A DNA stretch of 64,000 bases, taken from NCBI RefSeq assembly GCF_002787055.1, contig NZ_CP024808.1:956328-1020327 (forward strand), given 5' to 3'. The notes beneath the pieces were generated by a model. The model was not told where the DNA came from. It did not search any database and was given only the letters and a program-made list of their open reading frames with translations. The DNA comes from Candidatus Nitrosotenuis aquarius. GTDB lineage: Archaea; Thermoproteota; Nitrososphaeria; Nitrososphaerales; Nitrosopumilaceae. Below, piece after piece: positions 6,481 to 31,779 of the stretch (its first letter is position 1; the number at the start of each line of letters is the position of its first letter). The translations under genes were made by a program, and so were the position numbers.

Positions 6481-6696
6481 ATGTCAACAATCCAAATCCA
6501 AGGGGAATGGGAACCTTCCCCGGCAAAAACTCTGGCAAGTTGCTGGCCAGTAAAAGAAGGCAAAACACAACAAGCAAACTTGTACAGATGCATAGTTTGC
6601 TCCAACTTGAAGACTCCTTGTACCTTCGATGAAAACGACAAGCCACTTGTTTTGAGATGCATAAAATGTGGCCACAAGTCTTGGGCCAATGGGTAA
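6481..6696 (+). CDS. Small zinc-ribbon protein
   Basis: A 71-residue protein with two Cys pairs (YRCIVCSN and LRCIKCGHK, residues about 38-65) typical of a zinc ribbon, after a Trp-containing N-terminus. ATG at 6481 lies about 25 bp after a TATA-like element, so the mRNA is probably leaderless; an upstream in-frame ATG at 6442 would lie before the TATA box and is rejected. It is one of three genes behind the GGCATACC motif. Function unknown. Confidence 0.65.
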   Translation: MSTIQIQGEWEPSPAKTLASCWPVKEGKTQQANLYRCIVCSNLKTPCTFDENDKPLVLRCIKCGHKSWANG

Positions 6697-6729
6697 CCAA
6701 GATTTGTGCATTTTCATTAGTTTGCATAT

Positions 6730-8131: not shown

Positions 8132-9031
8132 TTAGGTCTTTCTTAGTTCAGCAAACGAAGAATCTAAAACATGTTTTCGCACAACTCTGACGCACTGGTG
8201 CATTAGAGTTTTGATGTCTTCAGAAAGATCTCCCAGTATTTTTACGACTAGGCCGCAATCTTCTGGCAAAAACGAACAGCCACTTGTCAGATCAGAATTT
8301 TCCAAGACAGAATTGATCTCGTCTGAGATTTTTTGCAGTTGTTCCTTTTTTGTTATAATGTACATGGTTCCAAAAACGGACTTGGTTCCAAGAATTCCCA
8401 TTCGGCTGAATTCATGCTTTGGATCAAGCTTGAGAGAATCCATGAACAAGGTCTTGCCATTTTTGTTTTTTGCAACCATCTTCAGATAGCATAAATCATA
8501 GTCAAATAACTCACCCATTGCCACACGTCCAGGCATTACTATCTCTGAATACACTATAGTAGAATCGGCTCCAGCCGTCATTTGCACCCGCTGAAAATAC
8601 CTGGATTTTTTGTACGGAATTATCTGGTCTGGTAAAAACTCTAGATACGCATTATCGCCTACTGTGATGTCTATGAATTGGGCGGCATAGTTTGACTCCA
8701 TTTTATAGATTCTTGTGGCTCCTTGCGTAGTCACGTTTGCAATTGCATTGTTTTGTACCGATATCTGGATGTGATGCCTGTCTCCCTGAAGAATTCCGCC
8801 AGACGAAGACATCAAGAACAAATAAGCCATGGCGGGATTTGCCACATCATAGTGCAGAGCCTTTTGCGTCAGAAGCGGCGCCTTGGAATATTGATGCACT
8901 ATTATTGTCTTGTTTTTTGCCTCATCCATTGCAAGTGTGATTTGCAGGTTGCCGACTTTTTCAATGTCAGAATTATTTTGCAAATACTGGGCAAATTCTT
9001 CCGGTATCTTTTCTGAATTTATCTGAATCAT
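8132..9031 (-). CDS. ureD: Urease accessory protein UreD
   Basis: A 299-residue UreD (UreH in some nomenclatures), the scaffold that binds apo-urease and channels nickel from UreG. Characteristic stretches are MSSSGGILQGDRHHIQISV, TTQGATRIYKM and LEFLPDQIIPYKKSRYFQ. It is the last gene of the leftward ureE-ureF-ureG-ureD operon; its start overlaps the end of ureG by 4 bp, indicating translational coupling. Confidence 0.95.
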   Translation of the reverse strand: MIQINSEKIPEEFAQYLQNNSDIEKVGNLQITLAMDEAKNKTIIVHQYSKAPLLTQKALHYDVANPAMAYLFLMSSSGGILQGDRHHIQISVQNNAIANVTTQGATRIYKMESNYAAQFIDITVGDNAYLEFLPDQIIPYKKSRYFQRVQMTAGADSTIVYSEIVMPGRVAMGELFDYDLCYLKMVAKNKNGKTLFMDSLKLDPKHEFSRMGILGTKSVFGTMYIITKKEQLQKISDEINSVLENSDLTSGCSFLPEDCGLVVKILGDLSEDIKTLMHQCVRVVRKHVLDSSFAELRKT

Positions 9032-9678
9032 TTCAGTTGCGCCTTTGGAGGCTCCTCAAAGAGCAGATCTTCAACGATATGGTCAGATACTTTTTCTATT
9101 CCGGTTTGGTCCATGCAGTTTACAAATACGTGCGGCCTGCCCTTGCGGATTGTTTTGGCGTCCCTGTCCATTACTGAGAGGTCTGCATTGACAAGCGGCG
9201 CAAGATCGATTTTGTTTATTACAAGAAGATCGCATGACTCTATCCCAAGGCCTCCCTTTCTTGGATACTTGTCGCCTCCAGAGACATCAACGATGTAAAT
9301 GAAATAGTCCGCCAGTGCAGGACTAAACGTAGTCATCACGTTATCGCCCCCGCTTTCAAGAATTATCAGGTCTAGCTCAGGATGGTTTTGCTCAATTTCC
9401 TCAATTACTGCCAAATTCATCGACGGATCTTCGCGTATTGCTGTGTGAGGGCATCCCCCGGTGGCAATTCCAATGACCATGTTTTCAGGAAGCAATCCCT
9501 GTGTTGTTGCCAGATTTTTTCTTATTCTGTCGGCATCTTCCTTTGATATTACATCGTTTGATATGACGCAGATCCTATAGCCACGCCTTGCAAGCACTGG
9601 AACAATTTTCTCAATTAGCATGCTTTTGCCAGAGCCGACGGGGCCTCCAATTCCTATTCGCGGGATTCTTTTTGCCAT
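9028..9678 (-). CDS. ureG: Urease accessory GTPase UreG
   Basis: A SIMIBI-class GTPase of about 216 residues that delivers Ni2+ to urease. Visible motifs are P-loop GGPVGSGKS, the nickel-binding CPH in GGCPHTAIREDPS, the switch region LESGGDNVMTTFSP and the base-recognition motif NKIDL. ATG at 9678 gives a typical start; an in-frame GTG at 9687 would create a 4-bp GTGA overlap with ureF and is an alternative. It lies in the ureEFGD operon. Confidence 0.96.
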   Translation of the reverse strand: MAKRIPRIGIGGPVGSGKSMLIEKIVPVLARRGYRICVISNDVISKEDADRIRKNLATTQGLLPENMVIGIATGGCPHTAIREDPSMNLAVIEEIEQNHPELDLIILESGGDNVMTTFSPALADYFIYIVDVSGGDKYPRKGGLGIESCDLLVINKIDLAPLVNADLSVMDRDAKTIRKGRPHVFVNCMDQTGIEKVSDHIVEDLLFEEPPKAQLK

Positions 9679-9683
9679 GGTTT

Positions 9684-10382
9684 TCACGTTATGAACATTT
9701 TTGCTTCCATTTTTTCATGGTGCATCTGCAAAATGTCTGCTTGTGGCAAGAACTGCCAAATTCGGTCTGGGGACTTTGAGATGTATTTTCTTACTTGGTC
9801 ACTGATGACTGGTTTGAGTGAGTTGATTATTTGCTGGCTTTGTATGTGCTGTATGATTCCAAGACGCAATGCAGCCCCGACCATACTTGTTGCAAACCCA
9901 TAAAACAACATAAGACATGCGTCTTGTTTTGAGATCCCAAAAAGTTGGGCCGCAATGGAAAAGGCAACAGGATATGTGCCAGGGGTTTTTGACTGTAGAA
10001 TCTTTTCATGATATTCCGTGGCAAATGAATCATCAACAAGGGATAAAACGCACTTGATTAGCTGTTTGCCAGATCGCACGGATGCCTCCCGTTGTTCTCT
10101 TACCAGCTTGGTTTTGTAGATTGTGTCATCAATCTGTATTATCTCATCTAGGCTTTTAGTGGCAGCAAAGTCATATGCATTTGCAAGCGCCACGCAGTCA
10201 GCAGGTCCTACTTGCTGTACATAATACATCTCGATTAGATTTTGCACATCAGTTGGGCCGGTTATCATTTTTTGTCGATGCATTGCCTCAAGCCCATTTG
10301 ACATGGTGTAAAGGCCGGCCGGAAAAAACGAGTCCGACAGCTGCATTATACTAAGGCTTGAAAAATCAGTGTCCATGTACAT
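9684..10382 (-). CDS. ureF: Urease accessory protein UreF
   Basis: A 232-residue all-helical UreF, which together with UreD and UreG forms the nickel-insertion complex. Recognisable segments are LSDSFFPAGLYTMSNGLE near the N-terminus and GYFATSMVGAALRLG-like residues (GFATSMVGAALRLG) near the C-terminal third. It overlaps ureE by 17 bp and abuts ureG. Met 3 (MDTDFSS) is an equally possible start. Confidence 0.94.
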   Translation of the reverse strand: MYMDTDFSSLSIMQLSDSFFPAGLYTMSNGLEAMHRQKMITGPTDVQNLIEMYYVQQVGPADCVALANAYDFAATKSLDEIIQIDDTIYKTKLVREQREASVRSGKQLIKCVLSLVDDSFATEYHEKILQSKTPGTYPVAFSIAAQLFGISKQDACLMLFYGFATSMVGAALRLGIIQHIQSQQIINSLKPVISDQVRKYISKSPDRIWQFLPQADILQMHHEKMEAKMFIT

Positions 10383-10869
10383 CCATGGATTTGTGAGGCT
10401 GAAAAATTTTTTCTTCCTGTACTAGCTCGATTTTGTCTGCCAGATCCCGGAATGCTGAGCGAAACATGTCAATTTCTGCCTCAGAGTGAATTGGAATCGA
10501 TATAGAGTCGTTTCCAAGCGAGACAGGCCTGTGCAGATTACCTATGATGTGCCCAAGTAAAATGAGGGATTTTGGCTCAAGGCCTGCAAATCTGACTGTG
10601 ATCGTAGGCTCTGGGACCTGCCGTATCAGAACTTTGACGTCATCCCCATACAGGACATCCCCGTGTGTCATTTTTTTGTCATATTCGATGTTTATTCCGA
10701 TTGCCGTGCCGTCGGATGCTTTTTGCTTTAGTCTTGTTTTTTCAAGATCATGGCGTAAAACATGTATGGTTTTGTAATTTTCATTATGTGTGTTGGACTC
10801 GAATTCTTTTGCAATAGCGGGATCATCAAAAATATTTCCAATTATTCTTTGAACTTTGAGCAACAGCAA
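10366..10869 (-). CDS. ureE: Urease accessory nickel chaperone UreE
   Basis: A 167-residue UreE. The N-terminal peptide-binding-like domain is followed by the metal-binding domain with the signature LGHIIGNLHRPV, whose first His is the conserved interfacial nickel ligand. The C-terminal tail contains a few His (QPHKSMDVHGH), shorter than the poly-His tails of some bacteria. First gene of the leftward accessory operon, transcribed away from ureA across a 66-bp gap. Confidence 0.94.
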   Translation of the reverse strand: MLLLKVQRIIGNIFDDPAIAKEFESNTHNENYKTIHVLRHDLEKTRLKQKASDGTAIGINIEYDKKMTHGDVLYGDDVKVLIRQVPEPTITVRFAGLEPKSLILLGHIIGNLHRPVSLGNDSISIPIHSEAEIDMFRSAFRDLADKIELVQEEKIFQPHKSMDVHGH

Positions 10870-10935: not shown

Positions 10936-11238
10936 ATGTTTTTGACTCCAAGAGAGATTGACAAGTTACACATTTTTTTGGCCGCAGAACTTGCGCGCAA
11001 AAGAAAAGCAAGAGGCCTCAAGCTTAATCACCCAGAAGCAGTGGCACTAATTACTGATCATATACTAGAGGGGGCAAGGGACGGCAAGTCAGTTGCAGAC
11101 TTGATGAGCTCCGGAAAAAAAGTCCTAACAAGAAATGATGTTTTACCCGAAGTTCCCGAAATAATTCACACTATTCAAGTCGAGGCCACATTTGATGATG
11201 GAACGAAGCTAGTCACAGTTCACGACCCTATTGTGTAA
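10936..11238 (+). CDS. ureA: Urease gamma subunit
   Basis: A 100-residue UreA of canonical length, colinear with bacterial gamma subunits: [41 protein letters not shown], then [19 protein letters not shown] and the terminal VHDPI. It forms the (UreABC)3-type holoenzyme that hydrolyses urea to ammonia and carbamate in the cytoplasm. The ureB start lies 4 bp after its stop. Confidence 0.97.
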
Positions 11239-11242
11239 TGCC

Positions 11243-11605
11243 ATGATACCAGGACAGTACTTTATCTCTGAGAAGCCAATAATTGCAAACCAGGGAAAAA
11301 AGACAGTAACAATATCGGTCAAAAATACAGGAGACAGGCCAATCCAAGTCGGCTCTCATACTCATTTTTTTGAGTCAAACAAGGCACTCGAGTTTGCGCG
11401 AGAGGAATCATATGGATTTCATCTCAACATTGCCGCAGGCACATCAGTTCGATTTGAGCCTGGCGAGACAAAAAAAGTCGAGCTGACCGAATATGGCGGA
11501 AAAAGAGTCGTCTTTGGGTTCAGCGGGCTGGTAAATGGGCCGCTATCGGAAAAAAAATCAGAGGCGATGCAAAAGGCCAAAAAGGCCGGGTTTAGAGGCG
11601 CATGA
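11243..11605 (+). CDS. ureB: Urease beta subunit
   Basis: A 120-residue Ure[14 protein letters not shown] start, [20 protein letters not shown] core, and [22 protein letters not shown] at 11243 gives the standard IPG start; a TTG at 11231 inside ureA is rejected. Its last codons overlap the ureC ATG by 4 bp (ATGA), so beta and alpha subunits are translationally coupled. Confidence 0.96.
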
Positions 11606-13314
11606 CGCTAGAGATTCCGCGGAAAAAATACGTTGATCTTTTTGGTCCCACAACAGGAGACAAAGTCAGGCTTGGAGACACTGATCTAATCATAGAAATT
11701 GAAAAAGACTTGATTGGATATGGGGATGAGGCCGTCTTTGGCGGAGGAAAAAGCATCAGGGACGGTTCGGCACAAGCAAGTGGTGTGATTTACGACGACT
11801 CGGTGGATCTGGTCATTACAAACGCAATCATCATGGATCCAGTTCTTGGAATAATCAAGGCAGACATTGGAATCAAGGACGGAAAGATTTTCAAAATAGG
11901 TAAAGCCGGCAATCCAAACACCACAGACGGAGTTGATATCATCATATCGTCAAACACGGAGATAATTTCTGGCGAGCACTTGATCTGCACGCCGGGAGTA
12001 ATAGACACGCATATCCATTTTATTTCTCCACAGCAGGCAATAGACGCAATTTGCGGAGGCACCACCACCATGATAGGAGGCGGGACGGGGCCTGCAGACG
12101 GAACCAATGCCACCACATGCACACCAGGAAAATGGAACATGCACAGGATGATACAGGCAACAGAAGAATTCCCAATCAATTTTGGCTTTCTTGGAAAGGG
12201 AAACGACTCTCAAGAAGAATCCCTAATTGATCAGATCAGAGAAGGCGCATGTGGCCTCAAGTTGCACGAAGACTGGGGTACTACGCCGGCAACAATAGAT
12301 GCCGCGCTACGAGTAGCAGACAAGACTGATACCCAGATTGCCATACACACAGACACGCTAAACGAGTGCGGTTATGTGGATGATACCATTGCAGCAATTG
12401 CCGGAAGGGCAATCCATACATACCACACAGAGGGCGCCGGAGGAGGCCATGCCCCAGACATAATGAAAATAGCAAGCGAGCCAAACGTCCTGCCCTCATC
12501 TACAAACCCGACTAGGCCATATACGGTAAACACACTTGATGAGCACCTAGACATGATGATGGTTTGCCACCACCTCAACTCGTCTGTTCCAGAGGACGTC
12601 TCGTTTGCAGAGTCAAGAATTCGCGCAGAGACAATTGCCGCAGAAGACATCCTTCATGATGTTGGGGCAATAAGCATGATGTCATCAGACAGCCAGGCAA
12701 TGGGAAGAGTTGGCGAGACGACCACCAGATGCTGGCAAAGCGCAGACAAGATGAAGAAAAGTTTTGGCAGACACAAGGACGAAACTGCAGAGAATGACAA
12801 TTTCAGAGTAAAGCGCTACTTGGCAAAAATAACAATAAACCCGGCAATAACTCACGGAATCTCTCAACATGTCGGCTCGCTAGAGCCCGGCAAAATTGCG
12901 GACATTGTGGTGTGGTCGCCGCAGTTTTTTGGCGCAAAACCCAAAATGATAATCAAGGGAGGTATGATTGCGTATTCTTTGATGGGAGATCCAAACGCCT
13001 CAATTCCCACAACAGAGCCAATCTACTACAGGCCCATGTTTGGGTCCCTGGGACGGGCAAAGCAGGCAATCTCGTTTGTGTTTACGTCAAGACTTGCACT
13101 AGAAAACGGCATCGAGAGCAAGCTTGGGATAACAAAAAAGTTTCTTGTCGTAAAGAACTGCCGTAACATTGGGAAAAAAGACATGGTCCTCAATGACGCC
13201 ACGCCAAAAATCGAGATCGACCCAGAGACATACCAAGTAAAAGTTGACGGCAATCTAGCAACAACAAAGCCTGCCACAAGCGTTTCGCTTGCAAGGCTAT
13301 ACAACTTGTTCTGA
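11602..13314 (+). CDS. ureC: Urease alpha (catalytic) subunit
   Basis: A 570-residue catalytic subunit, normal length. All metal and active-site elements are visible: HIH in DTHIHFISP, the carbamylated Lys in GLKLHEDWG, His residues in AIHTDTLNE and [15 protein letters not shown], the flap with VCHHLN, and the Asp ligand in [10 protein letters not shown]. The enzyme holds a dinuclear Ni centre assembled by UreDEFG. It is the end of the ureABC operon and converges with the leftward 4-hydroxybutyryl-CoA dehydratase gene, with the stop codons 1 bp apart. Confidence 0.98.
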
Positions 13315-23539: not shown

Positions 23540-24307
23540 CTAGAGGAATTGCAGGTCAAGGCCAACAAAATTTCCGCTTGATATGACATCATACAAAATG
23601 TCAATTCCTATTACAACACTAATAGAGCCAACCACATAGCGTAAAATTTTGTTAATTTTACCAGAGTTGCGCGCCAGCGAAAACGGCAATCCTATTACAC
23701 TACTCACCAACATCATCCCAACAATAGAGCCTGCGCCAAACATTATCACAAGTGACAGGATGTTTTCCAGATTATTCAGTGTCGAGAGCGCCAATACAAC
23801 CAGGCTTCCGCTGCCGGCAAGGCCATGTATGCATCCAATGATGTATGATTTGTGCCCGTGTGTGTGGGAGTTGTCGTGCGAGTGAGGGTGCGTGTGCACC
23901 AGATTGTCATGGGCATGAGGATGGATGTGTTTTTGTCCAATCAAGGCTTTTTTGCGGTATGTAAAAACGCCAAGTGCCACAAGCATCAAGCCCACCCCAA
24001 TCTCAAAGCTGCCAAAGACCTTTTCTGGAATGCTCATCGAGAACACAAAGATCAAAAGGCTCACTAGGACAAGTGCGGATGTGTGTCCTGCCCCCCACAG
24101 TGCCCCCAGGATAGAACTTTTTACGGCAGATGCGCCAATTTGATAAAATCTCGAAGGCGAGCCTTTCTGCAATAGCTTGGAGTTCTGCGTTGCCACTGCA
24201 ACCACATGATCAGGCTCAAATGCATGAGATAGCCCTATCACAAATCCGGCAACAAGCGTAAAGAAGGGCGTTGCAGTTGGTAGTTGTTTGACTAGTTCTT
24301 CTATCAT
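23540..24307 (-). CDS. Nickel/cobalt permease, NiCoT/UreH type
   Basis: A 255-residue, six- to seven-helix permease. The signature HAFEPDHV (H-x4-D-H) in the first helix region is the metal-binding motif of NiCoT/HupE-UreH-type Ni2+ transporters. A central cytoplasmic loop is extremely His-rich (HIHPHAHDN, HTHPHSHDN, HTHGHK). Other conserved segments are GAGHTSALVLV and GCIHGLAGSGSLVVLAL. It would supply Ni2+ for urease and possibly for the ureohydrolase encoded two genes upstream in the same operon (9-bp gap to the UreA-like gene). Confidence 0.88.
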   Translation of the reverse strand: MIEELVKQLPTATPFFTLVAGFVIGLSHAFEPDHVVAVATQNSKLLQKGSPSRFYQIGASAVKSSILGALWGAGHTSALVLVSLLIFVFSMSIPEKVFGSFEIGVGLMLVALGVFTYRKKALIGQKHIHPHAHDNLVHTHPHSHDNSHTHGHKSYIIGCIHGLAGSGSLVVLALSTLNNLENILSLVIMFGAGSIVGMMLVSSVIGLPFSLARNSGKINKILRYVVGSISVVIGIDILYDVISSGNFVGLDLQFL

Positions 24308-24316
24308 TTTTGCGCC

Positions 24317-24706
24317 TCAACTAGACTTTATGATATAGTCAGAAATGCGAATTGGCGTCTCCAAAACAACCATCCTTGTGATGCAGTCATCAAGTGTAAC
24401 CTCAAAGGACATTTTTCTGAGTGTTTCAGGAACCCCTATCATAACTTGCTCTGGCCTTAGTAGACAAGACGCATCCCTTTGAATTTGCTCTATTGGCATA
24501 TCATTGGATAGTCCAGATATTACAAACGCCGAATACAGGGCAATGCTTTCATTGATGTTGATTCTAAGATTTTTGTCAAGCTTGCTTTTGACCATGGCAA
24601 CCAAGTTGGCAGCTATCTCCTCATCTGTTTTGCTAAGGTATGAGATATCACTAGTAAAGGGAGGAATGTCTTGCTCCCCTTTTACTGTTAGTTTGATGTG
24701 GATCAA
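24317..24706 (-). CDS. Divergent paralogue of urease gamma subunit (UreA-like)
   Basis: A 129-residue protein. From about residue 25 it aligns nearly without gaps to the UreA encoded at 10936: NESIALYSAFVISGLSNDM matches [39 protein letters not shown] matches [19 protein letters not shown], and VVLETPI matches VTVHDPI. An N-terminal extension of about 25 residues (MIHIKLTVKGEQDI) and a short tail are extra. It cannot be the structural gamma subunit because ureA is present and canonical. It starts 4 bp inside the ureohydrolase gene and is followed by the nickel permease. Role unknown; an accessory subunit or metallochaperone of the ureohydrolase is a hypothesis. Confidence 0.75.
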   Translation of the reverse strand: MIHIKLTVKGEQDIPPFTSDISYLSKTDEEIAANLVAMVKSKLDKNLRININESIALYSAFVISGLSNDMPIEQIQRDASCLLRPEQVMIGVPETLRKMSFEVTLDDCITRMVVLETPIRISDYIIKSS

Positions 24707-25824
24707 TCCCGCTTGGGTATCTTTGGTCGCGGAATATTTTTGTCAAAGTGATACGTGTTCCCTGTTCCGCGGTAGTTGTGTGGTCGTACAGGATCGCCGT
24801 TTTCCAGTCCTCTCTTTGTAAGTGATAGGCCAGCCAATAGCTCTATGATCAGTCGCTGGCCAAGACCGGAGGTAATGCCTCCGTTGTATGAACTACTATC
24901 ACTTACGTCATATGCAGGAGCTACTTCGACTAGATCCATTGCAAATCTGTCGGGATCAAATGATTTTGATAACAATCTCACCATTCTCATTCCTTCTCTT
25001 GATGTTAGGCCGTTTGGTTCTGGTTCACCAGTTCCTGGCGCATATGCAGGATCAAAAGAGTCAATGTCCCAGCTTAGGTATACTGCATCGGTGCCATCAT
25101 TGGCTCTGTCAGCTATTTCTTTTGCAATCATGTCAATTCCCAATTCCTCAACATCAAGCATTGTAAACCACTGGAAATCCTGGTCTGACATCCACTTGTA
25201 CAGGTCACGTCCCGGCCAGTAGCCTCTTGGGCCAACCAATGTGTAGTTTTTTCCTTTGAGGCAGCCCATCTCCATTATTCTTCTAATGTGTGCACCGTGA
25301 TCATACTTGTAGCCAGTGAGTCCTTGCGGTGCGCAGTCGGCGTGGGTATCAAAGTGAATCATGCCGATGTTTTTGTATTTTTTAGCAAAAGCGCGAACAT
25401 TTGCAAATGTTATAGAGTGGTCTCCCCCAAGCATGACTGGGATTCCCTCTTGGTCTAGGACTTCCTTGACTTTTTGGGTCATCCTTTTGTGGGATTCTAT
25501 TACGTCGCCCGGAGAAACCTGGACGTCCCCATAGTCAACGGTTTTGAAGGTTCCAAATGGGTCTGCGCCAGTCTCTATGTTAAATCTCTCATATGGTGGT
25601 GAAGGAATGGTAGAAGCAGCACGAATTGCACGTGGCCCATATCGAGCGCCTGGGCGAATTGTGGTTCCAAAATCAAACGGCTCGCCAATGATTGCAACAT
25701 CGGGTTTTGCCTGGACTAGTTCCTGGTGTGTCCTAATCCAAGGCAGGTGCAAAAATGTGTTTATTCCAACAAATGGCGCAACATCAGGCCCGTTGTAATC
25801 ATTACCGTAAAATTCCATTCCCAT
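24703..25824 (-). CDS. Ureohydrolase (agmatinase/guanidinase superfamily)
   Basis: A 373-residue arginase/agmatinase-fold enzyme that splits a guanidino group to urea. All six metal ligands are visible: His136 in GGDHS, Asp159/His161/Asp163 in DTHAD, Asp253/Asp255 in WDIDSFDPAYAPGTGEPEPNG. The N-terminal FGTTIRPGARYGPRAIR motif is typical, but the protein is longer than classical agmatinases (about 300 residues), with an N-terminal extension and a C-terminal tail. Agmatine, guanidinobutyrate or free guanidine could be substrates; Ni-dependent guanidine hydrolases (Sll1077/GdmH) belong to this superfamily. First gene of an operon with a UreA-like protein and a Ni permease. Met 3 (MEFYGN) is an alternative start. 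Confidence 0.9.
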   Translation of the reverse strand: MGMEFYGNDYNGPDVAPFVGINTFLHLPWIRTHQELVQAKPDVAIIGEPFDFGTTIRPGARYGPRAIRAASTIPSPPYERFNIETGADPFGTFKTVDYGDVQVSPGDVIESHKRMTQKVKEVLDQEGIPVMLGGDHSITFANVRAFAKKYKNIGMIHFDTHADCAPQGLTGYKYDHGAHIRRIMEMGCLKGKNYTLVGPRGYWPGRDLYKWMSDQDFQWFTMLDVEELGIDMIAKEIADRANDGTDAVYLSWDIDSFDPAYAPGTGEPEPNGLTSREGMRMVRLLSKSFDPDRFAMDLVEVAPAYDVSDSSSYNGGITSGLGQRLIIELLAGLSLTKRGLENGDPVRPHNYRGTGNTYHFDKNIPRPKIPKRD

Positions 25825-26068: not shown

Positions 26069-26320
26069 ATGACCAGGGTCAGCACAAAAGAAGACATTGA
26101 AAGAGAATCAAAGCGAGTGATTTCTGCCCTATATGGAGATGTGGCCGGTTTTCGAGTCAATGAGACATTCCAAATTCCTGAGAAAGGACCCAGAGAGGCA
26201 TGGGACGTTCAAGTAAATTTCATGCTAAACGGTCTAAAATACACAGTGGATCTTGAAATACAGGAAAAGGATGGTCAAGTAACCAATGCTAGGCTACTAG
26301 ATACAATGACTCCACTTTAA
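26069..26320 (+). CDS. Conserved hypothetical small protein
   Basis: An 83-residue alpha/beta protein with a helical start (TKEDIERESKRVISALYGD) then beta-rich segments, no Cys or membrane helix. A TATA-like ATTTTTATACATG lies about 25-30 bp upstream, so the promoter is well placed. It overlaps the 3' end of the convergent gene by 4 bp. Function unknown. Confidence 0.6.
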   Translation: MTRVSTKEDIERESKRVISALYGDVAGFRVNETFQIPEKGPREAWDVQVNFMLNGLKYTVDLEIQEKDGQVTNARLLDTMTPL

Positions 26321-28259: not shown

Positions 28260-29801
28260 CTAGATTGCAGTAGATTTGGTACCGTCTCCGGCCAGCTTAA
28301 AGTGCTTGAGGTCTTCGCCAGATATCAAGTCTTCTTCTGGAGGCACATAGTCGTTGACATCGTGCCTTTCCTTGCCGGGCCATTTTTTCTGAGTTGCCAG
28401 CGCCACTATGATGAAGAGCGCAAACGATATTGGCGGAGGTATCATGGTATCTAGTCCTGCCCATTCCAGAGGAACAACAAAGAACATCAACATTCTTAGC
28501 GCAGAGCCGACAATAAGCGACGTTACGGCGGCAGGCATGTTTGCCTTTTTCCAGAACAGTCCAAGTGTGAGTGGGGCAAGTGCTCCGGCAAACACAATGT
28601 CAAATGCAAGAATAAGATAGATTCCAGGCTGGGGCATAATATAGCCAAGAGTGAGCGCAGATATCATGACTGGAATCACTGCTAGTCTGGTTATCCATAA
28701 TAATTTAGAATCATTCCAAGCCTCCTTGCCTAGCCACCTTCGCCTGATTATTCTTTGGAGCAGGTTTCTAGATATCACACTAGATACTGCAAGTAGTCCG
28801 CCGTTTGCAGTAGACATGGATGCGCCAAGGACTCCCATCAAAAGCGCCGCACCTATTGCAAACGGCATGTGGTTGAGTGCCAAGCTCGGCAGTGCATGGT
28901 ACGGATCCTCAAGTCCCGGCAAAAAGTGAATTGCCACTATACCAAGCATGCCGACAGGCAATACCGTAAAGAATGTCAGTCCTGCTCCCATGAACGCACC
29001 ACGTCGAGCCGTCTTTGGATCTCTTGCCGCAAAGACTCTTTCCATAAAGTCCAGTGCAACAATGTCGCCCAGCCCCAAGGCAAGAATTCCTGCCCAATTG
29101 ATCAGAGCGCCGTTTGCCACATCAAACAACCCAGATAGATCAAGATGTGACGGTGGAGAGCTAGCTAGTATTGTGTCAAATGGAACTCCAGAGAATCCTC
29201 CTGCAAAGAACAAAAATGCCGCCCAGAACGAGCCAATTGCAAGATATATCTGGAAAATATCAGTATATGCAGAGGCAAATAGCCCTCCCGCAATTGTATA
29301 TGTCATTACTACTAGGGCCGCAATTATTATTCCCCACACAAATGGTATGCCCAGCGTAGTTTCCAAGATAAAGCCGCTTGCGGCAAAATTTCCTGCAACC
29401 AATATGGTGAAGCTGATTATCATCAATACGCCAGACATTCCTTCTGCGGCGTTTCCGTATCGTCTAAAATAATAGTCAGGCAATGTAAACATGGACATTT
29501 TGTTGAGCTTTTTTCCATAGACTAGGCCAGTCATCAAAAGACAGATTCCCAGCCCTATTGGAATTACTGCACCGCCCCAGAAACCAAACTGGAAGATTAG
29601 CGCCACGGATCCTAGTGACGAGTTTCCATCAACGGACTGCGCCACAAACATGGTTCCAACCATTAACAGCGGTAGGCTTTTTCCTGCAACGATCAGCCTT
29701 TTTCCACTTTTTTGAACTAGTCTGTACGTGAGGCTGCCAATAACCAGCGAAAATACAAGAAACGCAATTACGGCAATCCCATATCCCCCAAGCTCAACCA
29801 T
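28260..29801 (-). CDS. Sodium:solute symporter family transporter, candidate urea uptake
   Basis: A 513-residue SSS-family permease with about 13 membrane helices (LeuT fold): YGIAVIAFLVFSLVIGSLTY, the VAQSVDGNSSLGSVALI segment of helix 2 with the usual unwound region, TIAGGLFASAYTDIFQIYLA of helix 5, and GVLGASMSTANGGLLAVSS of helix 8, matching the Na+-site Ser/Thr motif. Thaumarchaeal urease users often encode an SSS-type urea transporter (DUR3-like), which makes urea a candidate substrate; proline, acetate or other solutes cannot be excluded. A TATA-like ATATTTATATAATTT lies about 28 bp upstream. Confidence 0.85.
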   Translation of the reverse strand: MVELGGYGIAVIAFLVFSLVIGSLTYRLVQKSGKRLIVAGKSLPLLMVGTMFVAQSVDGNSSLGSVALIFQFGFWGGAVIPIGLGICLLMTGLVYGKKLNKMSMFTLPDYYFRRYGNAAEGMSGVLMIISFTILVAGNFAASGFILETTLGIPFVWGIIIAALVVMTYTIAGGLFASAYTDIFQIYLAIGSFWAAFLFFAGGFSGVPFDTILASSPPSHLDLSGLFDVANGALINWAGILALGLGDIVALDFMERVFAARDPKTARRGAFMGAGLTFFTVLPVGMLGIVAIHFLPGLEDPYHALPSLALNHMPFAIGAALLMGVLGASMSTANGGLLAVSSVISRNLLQRIIRRRWLGKEAWNDSKLLWITRLAVIPVMISALTLGYIMPQPGIYLILAFDIVFAGALAPLTLGLFWKKANMPAAVTSLIVGSALRMLMFFVVPLEWAGLDTMIPPPISFALFIIVALATQKKWPGKERHDVNDYVPPEEDLISGEDLKHFKLAGDGTKSTAI

Positions 29802-30090
29802 CGCAAAGTTATGATTGAAAAATTATATAAATATTGAAAAAATCAAGTATTATACGTATTACGATTCCAAAACAATATAAGAAATTCATATTTTTTGGGA
29901 AAAAAAATAATTATTTCCAAAAACTTACGTACTATACATTTTACCAGAACCATGCCAGCAAAATAATCGAATCGATCAGCTACAAGACATCAATGTTAGT
30001 CTGTTTTGCAAAAAGATCAGAAAATGATTTGTTAAGATCTGATCATATCGCGGTATAAGATTTAATAATTTAACGAGTTTTCTTTTGAGG

Positions 30091-31779
30091 ATGAAGTATC
30101 CAGAACTGCTCAATCATGATGTAGCGCGAGTCGAAGAGTCTAGAAAATTGAATTTGGTTGTAGGCGGAATAATTCTGGACGTGATCAGAACCAGTTTTGG
30201 GCCTCGAGGCATGGACAAGGTCTACATCGATATTCTAGGCGACGACACATGCACAAGGCACGGCGGAGCCCTTCTAAGAAAGGTCGATCTCAAGCTTCCA
30301 GCTGCCAAAGCGATCATCGAGGGAGTCAATGCAGTAGACACCCATGTTGGCGATGGGACGATTTCTTCTGCTATCCTCATCGGAATGCTGCTAAGAAAAT
30401 CCGAGGAACTGCTGAAAATGGGAATATCCCCCCCAACAATCATCCGCGGTTATGAAAAAGCCCTGGAATTTGCACTAGACACGCTAGATAAAATCAAGAA
30501 AAAAGAGGACAACCGTGACAAAAAAATCATGCACAGGCTTGTCACCTCGTGTCTTGCAGGAAAGGCAATTGCAGACCTAGTCCCCGAAGACATGCAGATT
30601 GTCGATTTGATTGTGGATGCGGTTTTTAGCATAACAAACTTTCAAAAAAACTCACTAGACGTAGACGACATAAAGATTGAGGAAAAGGCAGGAAACACAA
30701 ACAAAATCCAGCTGGTCAGAGGAACAGTAATCGACAAGACAATTGATGATTCTGCCATGCCGCGCAGCATCGAAAATGCCAAAATTCTCCTGCTAAACGA
30801 GCCACTAGAAATGATGCGCACAAAAACAGATGAGCAAATTCAAATCGACTCCCCCGAGCAGATGGTGCTTTATTTGAATCAGGAAAAAATAGACATACTT
30901 GCCAAGGCAAAAAAAATTGTCAGTTCCGGCGCCAATGTAGTAATATCAAGAAAGGGAATCAATTCCATTGCGCAGGAATATTTCGCAAAGAACGGAGTGA
31001 TCTCACTCCGCAGGGCAAAGATAAACGATCTTTTGTGGCTAGAAAGATCAACTGGGGCAAAGACGTGCAAGAGTGTGGAAGACATTTCACAGGATGAGCT
31101 TGGATTTGCAAAAAGGGTCTATGAGAAAAATGTCGGCGGCGACAAGATGTTGTTCATAGATGGATGCAACGATTCCAAATCCCTGACCATACTTTTGAGG
31201 TGCAGCTCCAAGCGTTATCTTGATGAATTCCACCGTGACACGCTAAACGCAATCTATGTTCTGCGAAATTTTATCGAAAATCCGTTTATTGTCAGGGGAT
31301 GCGGCTCAACTGAAGCAATCATTGCAAACAATGTAAGGAAGCAGAGCGCAACAATAGAAGGGCGAGAGCAAATAGTAATTGAGAAATTCGCAGATGCAAT
31401 AGAGGAGATTCCGATAACGCTTGCAAGAAACGTAGGGATGGATCCCATAGACACACTCACGCAGCTTAGATCAAAATACGCAAACTGCCAAGATGGATCG
31501 CTAAAATGGTACGGAATAGACTCTCAGAACAGAAAGGTCTCAGAAATACCCCCAGGCGAAATTATCGAGACGCTTGCGGTAAAGCAGCAGTTCATCAGAA
31601 CGGGAGTCGAGATAGCCAACATGATACTCAACGTCAACGACATATTCATGAAGGACGAAATTGACAACACTCACTGCCACATTGATGGAACCGTCCATGC
31701 TCACCATGACGGAGGAAAGGCGCACAATCACTTTGAGCAGGAAGGACTAGAACAGCGCCAGATGCACCATTACTACTAA
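30091..31779 (+). CDS. Divergent thermosome-like (group II chaperonin) protein with His-rich tail
   Basis: A 562-residue chaperonin of normal length and domain order: GPRGMDKVYID, then VGDGTISSAILIGMLLRKSEELL, apical domain, and RDTLNAIYVLRNFIENPF in the equatorial C-terminal half. The nucleotide-site motif usually written TNDGATIL reads TRHGGALL, and the usual VPGGGA reads VRGCGS, while the D of GDGT and of RDTLN remains. The C-terminus (NTHCHIDGTVHAHHDGG, KAHNHF, MHHYY) has nine His instead of the usual Gly/Met tail. ATG at 30091 lies about 27 bp after a TATA-like ATTTAATAATTT. Probably a specialised paralogue with altered ATP use and metal binding. Confidence 0.85.
   Translation: MKYPELLNHDVARVEESRKLNLVVGGIILDVIRTSFGPRGMDKVYIDILGDDTCTRHGGALLRKVDLKLPAAKAIIEGVNAVDTHVGDGTISSAILIGMLLRKSEELLKMGISPPTIIRGYEKALEFALDTLDKIKKKEDNRDKKIMHRLVTSCLAGKAIADLVPEDMQIVDLIVDAVFSITNFQKNSLDVDDIKIEEKAGNTNKIQLVRGTVIDKTIDDSAMPRSIENAKILLLNEPLEMMRTKTDEQIQIDSPEQMVLYLNQEKIDILAKAKKIVSSGANVVISRKGINSIAQEYFAKNGVISLRRAKINDLLWLERSTGAKTCKSVEDISQDELGFAKRVYEKNVGGDKMLFIDGCNDSKSLTILLRCSSKRYLDEFHRDTLNAIYVLRNFIENPFIVRGCGSTEAIIANNVRKQSATIEGREQIVIEKFADAIEEIPITLARNVGMDPIDTLTQLRSKYANCQDGSLKWYGIDSQNRKVSEIPPGEIIETLAVKQQFIRTGVEIANMILNVNDIFMKDEIDNTHCHIDGTVHAHHDGGKAHNHFEQEGLEQRQMHHYY

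Follow-up and report, generated by a model that had tools for sequence, protein, structure and literature searches.

A conserved archaeal ureohydrolase gene cluster and its possible role in supplying urea to urease

On balance, we favour the view that many ammonia-oxidising archaea carry an import-and-hydrolysis module that turns a guanidino compound into urea for their urease. The window, a 64,000-nucleotide stretch of Candidatus Nitrosotenuis aquarius DNA (contig NZ_CP024808.1, positions 956,328 to 1,020,327), is part of a complete 1.697-Mb genome whose relatives are ammonia-oxidising archaea. In the proposed module, a symporter would import a small guanidino compound, and a ureohydrolase (UH) would cleave it, releasing urea together with an amine or ammonia. 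Urease, whose genes are 12 kb away, would then split the urea, and the ammonia would enter oxidation and assimilation. A UreA-like protein, a NicO-type permease and a His-tailed chaperonin would serve UH assembly and metal loading. We infer the direction of flow in this module. Candidate substrates of UH include guanidine, methylguanidine, guanidinoacetate/creatine and guanidinobutyrate, among others.

The core of the cluster is the set of three leftward genes described in the first-pass annotation, whose open reading frames occupy exactly the positions given there; the first two overlap by 4 bp, and 9 bp separate the second from the third. These encode UH (24703-25824; 373 aa, Arginase family PF00491), the UreA-like protein (24317-24706; 129 aa, a urease-gamma fold with an N-terminal beta-hairpin) and the NicO-type nickel/cobalt permease (23540-24307; 255 aa, with an H-x4-D-H motif and a His-rich loop), all on the minus strand. 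Two further genes, absent from that annotation, belong to the same conserved cluster. One encodes a Na+/solute symporter (SSF, PF00474; 28260-29801, minus strand; 513 aa) that is tightly linked to UH, and the other a divergent, thermosome-like group II chaperonin (30085-31779, plus strand) with the His-rich C-terminal tail ...HAHHDGGKAHNHFEQEGLEQRQMHHYY. The full urease cluster is located at 8.1-13.3 kb of the window, about 12 kb from UH, and comprises the accessory genes ureD (8132-9031), ureG (9028-9687), ureF (9684-10382) and ureE (10366-10869) on the minus strand and the structural genes ureA (10936-11238), ureB (11231-11605) and ureC (11602-13314) on the plus strand.

A gene for an 83-aa protein without a family match (26069-26320, plus strand) is divergent to UH. 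Across archaeal families, 25 of 29 loci have it close to UH.

The ureohydrolase and its active site

UH matches the Arginase profile PF00491 with 277 bits in a Pfam search. The earlier observation that all six metal ligands are visible is borne out by alignment with GdmH and others, which places them at H136, D159, H161, D163, D253 and D255. The references for GdmH, a nickel-dependent guanidine hydrolase, were Synechocystis Sll1077 (PDB 7esr/7oi1) and the Nitrospira inopinata enzyme (9fek). The best-scoring solved proteins are the guanidinobutyrase 3nio (190.6 bits) and GdmH (187.6 bits, with 7esr and 9fek close). Guanidinase specificity is associated with the pair Thr97/Trp305 (PMC11410670). 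The first of these is kept in the alignment as Thr55 of UH, and the second is replaced by Glu267. This Glu and the segment GTGEPEPNG show no variation among all 58 archaeal orthologues, and the Glu is also kept in four haloarchaeal relatives that are about 49-53% identical to UH. Purifying constraint on UH is strong, with dN/dS of about 0.01-0.02 and 212 of 373 residues invariant.

Together with its haloarchaeal relatives, UH forms its own clade (100/100), apart from GdmH, GbuA, GpuA and SpeB. The GdmH clade (100/100) is separate, and the sister grouping of the two is weak (88/38). Judged by sequence, UH is an uncharacterised archaeal subfamily of the arginase family; we call it a subfamily of its own because of the conserved Glu, the 100/100 clade and the weak support for a link with GdmH. 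With a Glu next to the metal, the active site might accommodate a small, strongly cationic substrate. Other Thermoproteota ureohydrolases were rejected as members, as their scores of about 170-205 bits fall far short of the 800-830 bits of true members, and the six that were tested have Thr at the position of Glu267. An AlphaFold model of UH was set aside (pLDDT 55.7, shallow alignment). In one genome (G095; L082 7364-8473), an in-frame TAG splits UH into two open reading frames, through either a sequencing error or early decay.

The first-pass annotation proposed that the archaeon may hydrolyse guanidine or another guanidino compound with a nickel enzyme, giving urea and ammonia. That UH is a GdmH-like, nickel-dependent guanidine hydrolase is possible, though rather unlikely. 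The six ligands and Thr97 are retained, the profile score to GdmH approaches that of the best match, the tree groups the two clades weakly, and UH has a NicO neighbour. Guanidine would also yield no carbon product, in keeping with the fact that we found no conserved enzyme that would process an amine product. However, the comparison with GdmH that supports the ligands and Thr also reveals that the diagnostic Trp is Glu in every member of UH, and UH lies outside the GdmH clade. Moreover, neither a guanidine riboswitch nor any other Rfam RNA was detected at 20-31 kb of the window up to E = 1, HypA has no match in the genome of the window, and the cluster has a symporter, whereas the transporters reported for guanidine are APC or ABC permeases (PMC11410670). 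N. inopinata also lacks the HypA/HypB-type nickel chaperones (GhaAB) (PMC11410670), and neither of two published screens detected guanidine genes in ammonia-oxidising archaea (PMC11410670, PMC12625717). Guanidine may be a substrate of UH, but the sequence does not favour it over other guanidino compounds.

The symporter, urease and distribution of the cluster

The symporter gene is found within 6 kb of UH in all 29 archaeal loci with full flanks. Across a set of 80 genomes, 24 of the 25 with UH have it, against 3 of the 38 that are urease-positive but lack UH and none of the 17 that have neither (p ~4e-16). The three exceptional assemblies are 84-93% complete, so UH was possibly missed in them. 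A relative of the symporter (about 36% identical) adjoins UH in Haloglomus, Haloarcula and Halalkalicoccus. Most simply, the symporter would be the importer of the UH substrate, and UH a source of urea for urease.

Alternatively, the symporter might be a urea transporter for urease, with UH merely helping to tune urea, as published for the NS-delta archaea. Sodium-solute symporters are indeed named as low-affinity urea transporters in archaeal papers (PMC10579303, PMC11131427), and urease usually accompanies UH. The genome of the window has urease and a single SSF gene, the symporter at 28260-29801. In NS-delta, the presence of urease without urea transporters was found puzzling (PMC10579303). 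Nevertheless, very few (3 of 38) of the urease-positive genomes that lack UH have this symporter. Urease-positive genomes without UH instead have a different, long SSF (DUR3-like, frames of 669-928 aa) a few kilobases from ureC; the 513-aa, UH-linked SSF of the window is distinct from that type. In Haloarcula and Halalkalicoccus, furthermore, the symporter accompanies UH in a stretch whose listed genes include no urease. We therefore regard a role in urea transport as improbable, and the tie to UH points to a likely misannotation of this symporter as a urea transporter. A profile search of the genome with PF03253 (UT urea channel) gave no match, and no control matched either.

Import of a UH substrate that ends as urea is consistent with the distribution of urease. 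UH is present in 73 of 301 genomes of the order. A ureC match occurs in 61 of these 73 (Fisher p ~3e-23), and 44 urease-positive genomes lack UH. The other 12 UH genomes gave no ureC match, but at least half of them have urease or accessory genes, and most of the assemblies concerned are fragmented. A genome with UH thus nearly always has urease, while many with urease lack UH, a pattern that a role of UH in feeding urease would predict. UH is within 9 kb of ureC in 16 of 29 archaeal loci, and in Natronorubrum a complete urease cluster adjoins it. Provision of urea to urease and of ammonia for oxidation, which the first-pass annotation had suggested, is the best-supported use of UH, a third, non-housekeeping ureohydrolase in urease-bearing genomes. 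An apparent case of UH and the UreA-like protein without urease, in the genus g58, had arisen from missing ureC matches and was discarded: ureC is present but split in G128, whose ureEFGD genes are on a different contig, and ureG is present in G207 and G209.

It is very unlikely that UH is a manganese-dependent agmatinase of polyamine synthesis, even though haloarchaeal records carry agmatinase-family annotations, as do soil archaeal metagenome-assembled genomes (PMC11131427). UH scores under both NCBIfam agmatinase cut-offs (163.1 against 174.3 for TIGR01230 and 212.2 against 302 for NF002564). The genome of the window has three arginase-family genes including UH, and it is one of the UH paralogues that groups with the archaeal agmatinase 3pzl (99/95). 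Also, the patchy occurrence of UH (73/301) is unlike that of arginine decarboxylase/agmatinase, which is described as ubiquitous in the group (PMC6790972).

The UreA-like protein, the permease and the chaperonin

The UreA-like gene begins with a TTG codon that overlaps the TGA stop codon of UH by 4 bp, and in most loci it starts inside or just past the UH stop. Its product scores 39.6 bits against Urease_gamma (PF00547), above the Pfam cut-off of 23.9, and is far below every NCBIfam urease-gamma cut-off (42 against 123; 35.8 against 82.3). An AlphaFold model (mean pLDDT 91.6) has urease gamma subunits as its top PDB matches, with a TM score of 0.81 by target length to 4fur. Residues ~26-119 form the urease-gamma fold, to which an N-terminal hairpin is added. 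The model agrees with the previous description of the protein as a divergent UreA paralogue. The copies form a clade outside true UreA, except for an intermediate copy in G002. The true ureA is with ureBC at 10936-11238; the UreA-like gene is instead downstream of UH.

After a score cut-off was applied and two weak positional cases were retained, the UreA-like gene is present in 63 of 301 genomes of the order, 62 of which also have UH. The synteny survey proposed by the first-pass annotation places this gene directly downstream of UH in other archaea, and the co-occurrence of the three genes holds for this pair and partially for NicO, which adjoins UH in 14 of 29 loci. In G212 and G259, the UreA-like gene is missing and NicO directly follows UH, and it is absent from all four haloarchaeal UH loci. 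Therefore, the protein is not essential to UH chemistry. Between closely related species it is about 60% identical, compared with 95% for UH, and its dN/dS is about 0.06-0.33 (a simple estimate, with synonymous sites near saturation in wider pairs). By these sequence measures, the UreA-like protein appears to evolve quickly and yet to be constrained.

The G218 locus (L241) retains intact NicO and urease genes and a remnant of the UreA-like gene (6570-6710), and has lost UH and the symporter. Its ureD is split into two open reading frames. The decay of the UreA-like gene despite retained urease implies that it depends on UH, not urease. We infer that the UreA-like protein works specifically with UH, as an accessory or a subunit, and is not a urease subunit. 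If confirmed, it would be a urease-gamma paralogue in the service of another enzyme. That it modifies urease and follows UH incidentally is the least probable of the readings considered, since its urease-gamma fold and the urease of nearly all its hosts are outweighed by its absence from nearly all urease-positive genomes that lack UH, its translational coupling to UH and its decay in G218 after UH was lost.

The description of the third gene as an H-x4-D-H nickel permease with a His-rich loop is upheld for the motif (HAFEPDH) and the loop, but the score against PF03824 (25.6 bits) is slightly under the cut-off of 27.7. A UH-linked NicO clade (99/99) includes 24 UH-adjacent members, three urease-only members and one with neither. 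Related archaea that lack both urease and UH have NicO homologues of other clades, so the permease is not proof of nickel and may carry nickel or cobalt.

The tail of the chaperonin ends in HHYY, and its gene is near UH in 26 of 29 UH loci, in varied arrangements. Possibly it is a maturation or metal-loading factor for UH. The Haloarcula chaperonin was considered as independent support for this association, which is weakened because it pairs with the formamidase gene fmdA in other haloarchaea. A divergent haloarchaeal chaperonin is repeatedly beside fmdA, which encodes another amidohydrolase (L226 8202-9818; L287 8932-10578; L288 6908-8611), and these chaperonins look dedicated to such enzymes. 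The tail of the divergent Haloarcula copy contains His. In the urease cluster of G128, a stretch between ureC and ureE (L237 1508-2941) also resembles a chaperonin, though very distantly (22% identity).

The adjacency of NicO, the UH-linked NicO clade, the UreA fold and the His-tailed chaperonin suggest metal handling. NicO, the UreA-like protein and the chaperonin probably act in assembly of UH and loading of its metal, perhaps nickel, which these three neighbours make a plausible metal for UH. A more specific proposal, that the UreA-like protein docks on UH (possibly borrowing the urease nickel chaperones UreDEFG, given the absence of HypA) and, with NicO and the His-tailed chaperonin, loads nickel into a new Glu267 ureohydrolase whose substrate is new to the family, is tentative and, taken as a whole, unlikely.

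Comparison with known systems

UH has the same fold family as GdmH, its six ligands and Thr97, and shares the positions of His222 and Glu344 (N. inopinata numbering). Urea-producing chemistry is expected of UH also, with urease downstream in ammonia oxidisers. In contrast to GdmH, UH has Glu for Trp305, belongs to a separate clade and is accompanied by a symporter rather than an APC or ABC permease. Its cluster contains no HypA/HypB-type gene, and has the UreA-like protein and the chaperonin instead. Of the Pseudomonas enzymes guanidinobutyrase (GbuA, 3nio) and guanidinopropionase (GpuA, 3nip), which have the same ligands as UH, 3nio gives the top score. However, both have Thr where UH has Glu in the key loop, and the two form a group that excludes UH (98/97). 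Urease gamma UreA shares the fold of UreA-like residues ~26-119, but the UreA-like protein has the extra N-terminal hairpin, its own clade and a location outside ureABC.

The metformin and dimethylguanidine hydrolases MefH and DmgH of Aminobacter and Pseudomonas also come from a ureohydrolase operon that encodes a partner subunit as well and has a nickel transporter gene (hupE) downstream; the metformin hydrolase operon contains hypA, hypB and hupE (PMC11399263). Their partner is a degenerate ureohydrolase subunit and not a UreA fold, and cellular activation requires HypA and HypB, which are encoded there. By analogy, the metformin hydrolase operon appears to be a functional parallel to the UH cluster, not a family match.

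The closest published precedent is from NS-delta soil archaea, in which an SSS symporter is clustered with an 'agmatinase SpeB' (PMC11131427). This is probably the same gene pair as UH and its symporter, although there it is interpreted as a urea transporter and an agmatinase. The UreA-like protein, NicO, the chaperonin, the tie of the symporter to UH rather than to urease and the haloarchaeal relatives do not appear in the consulted text of that paper.
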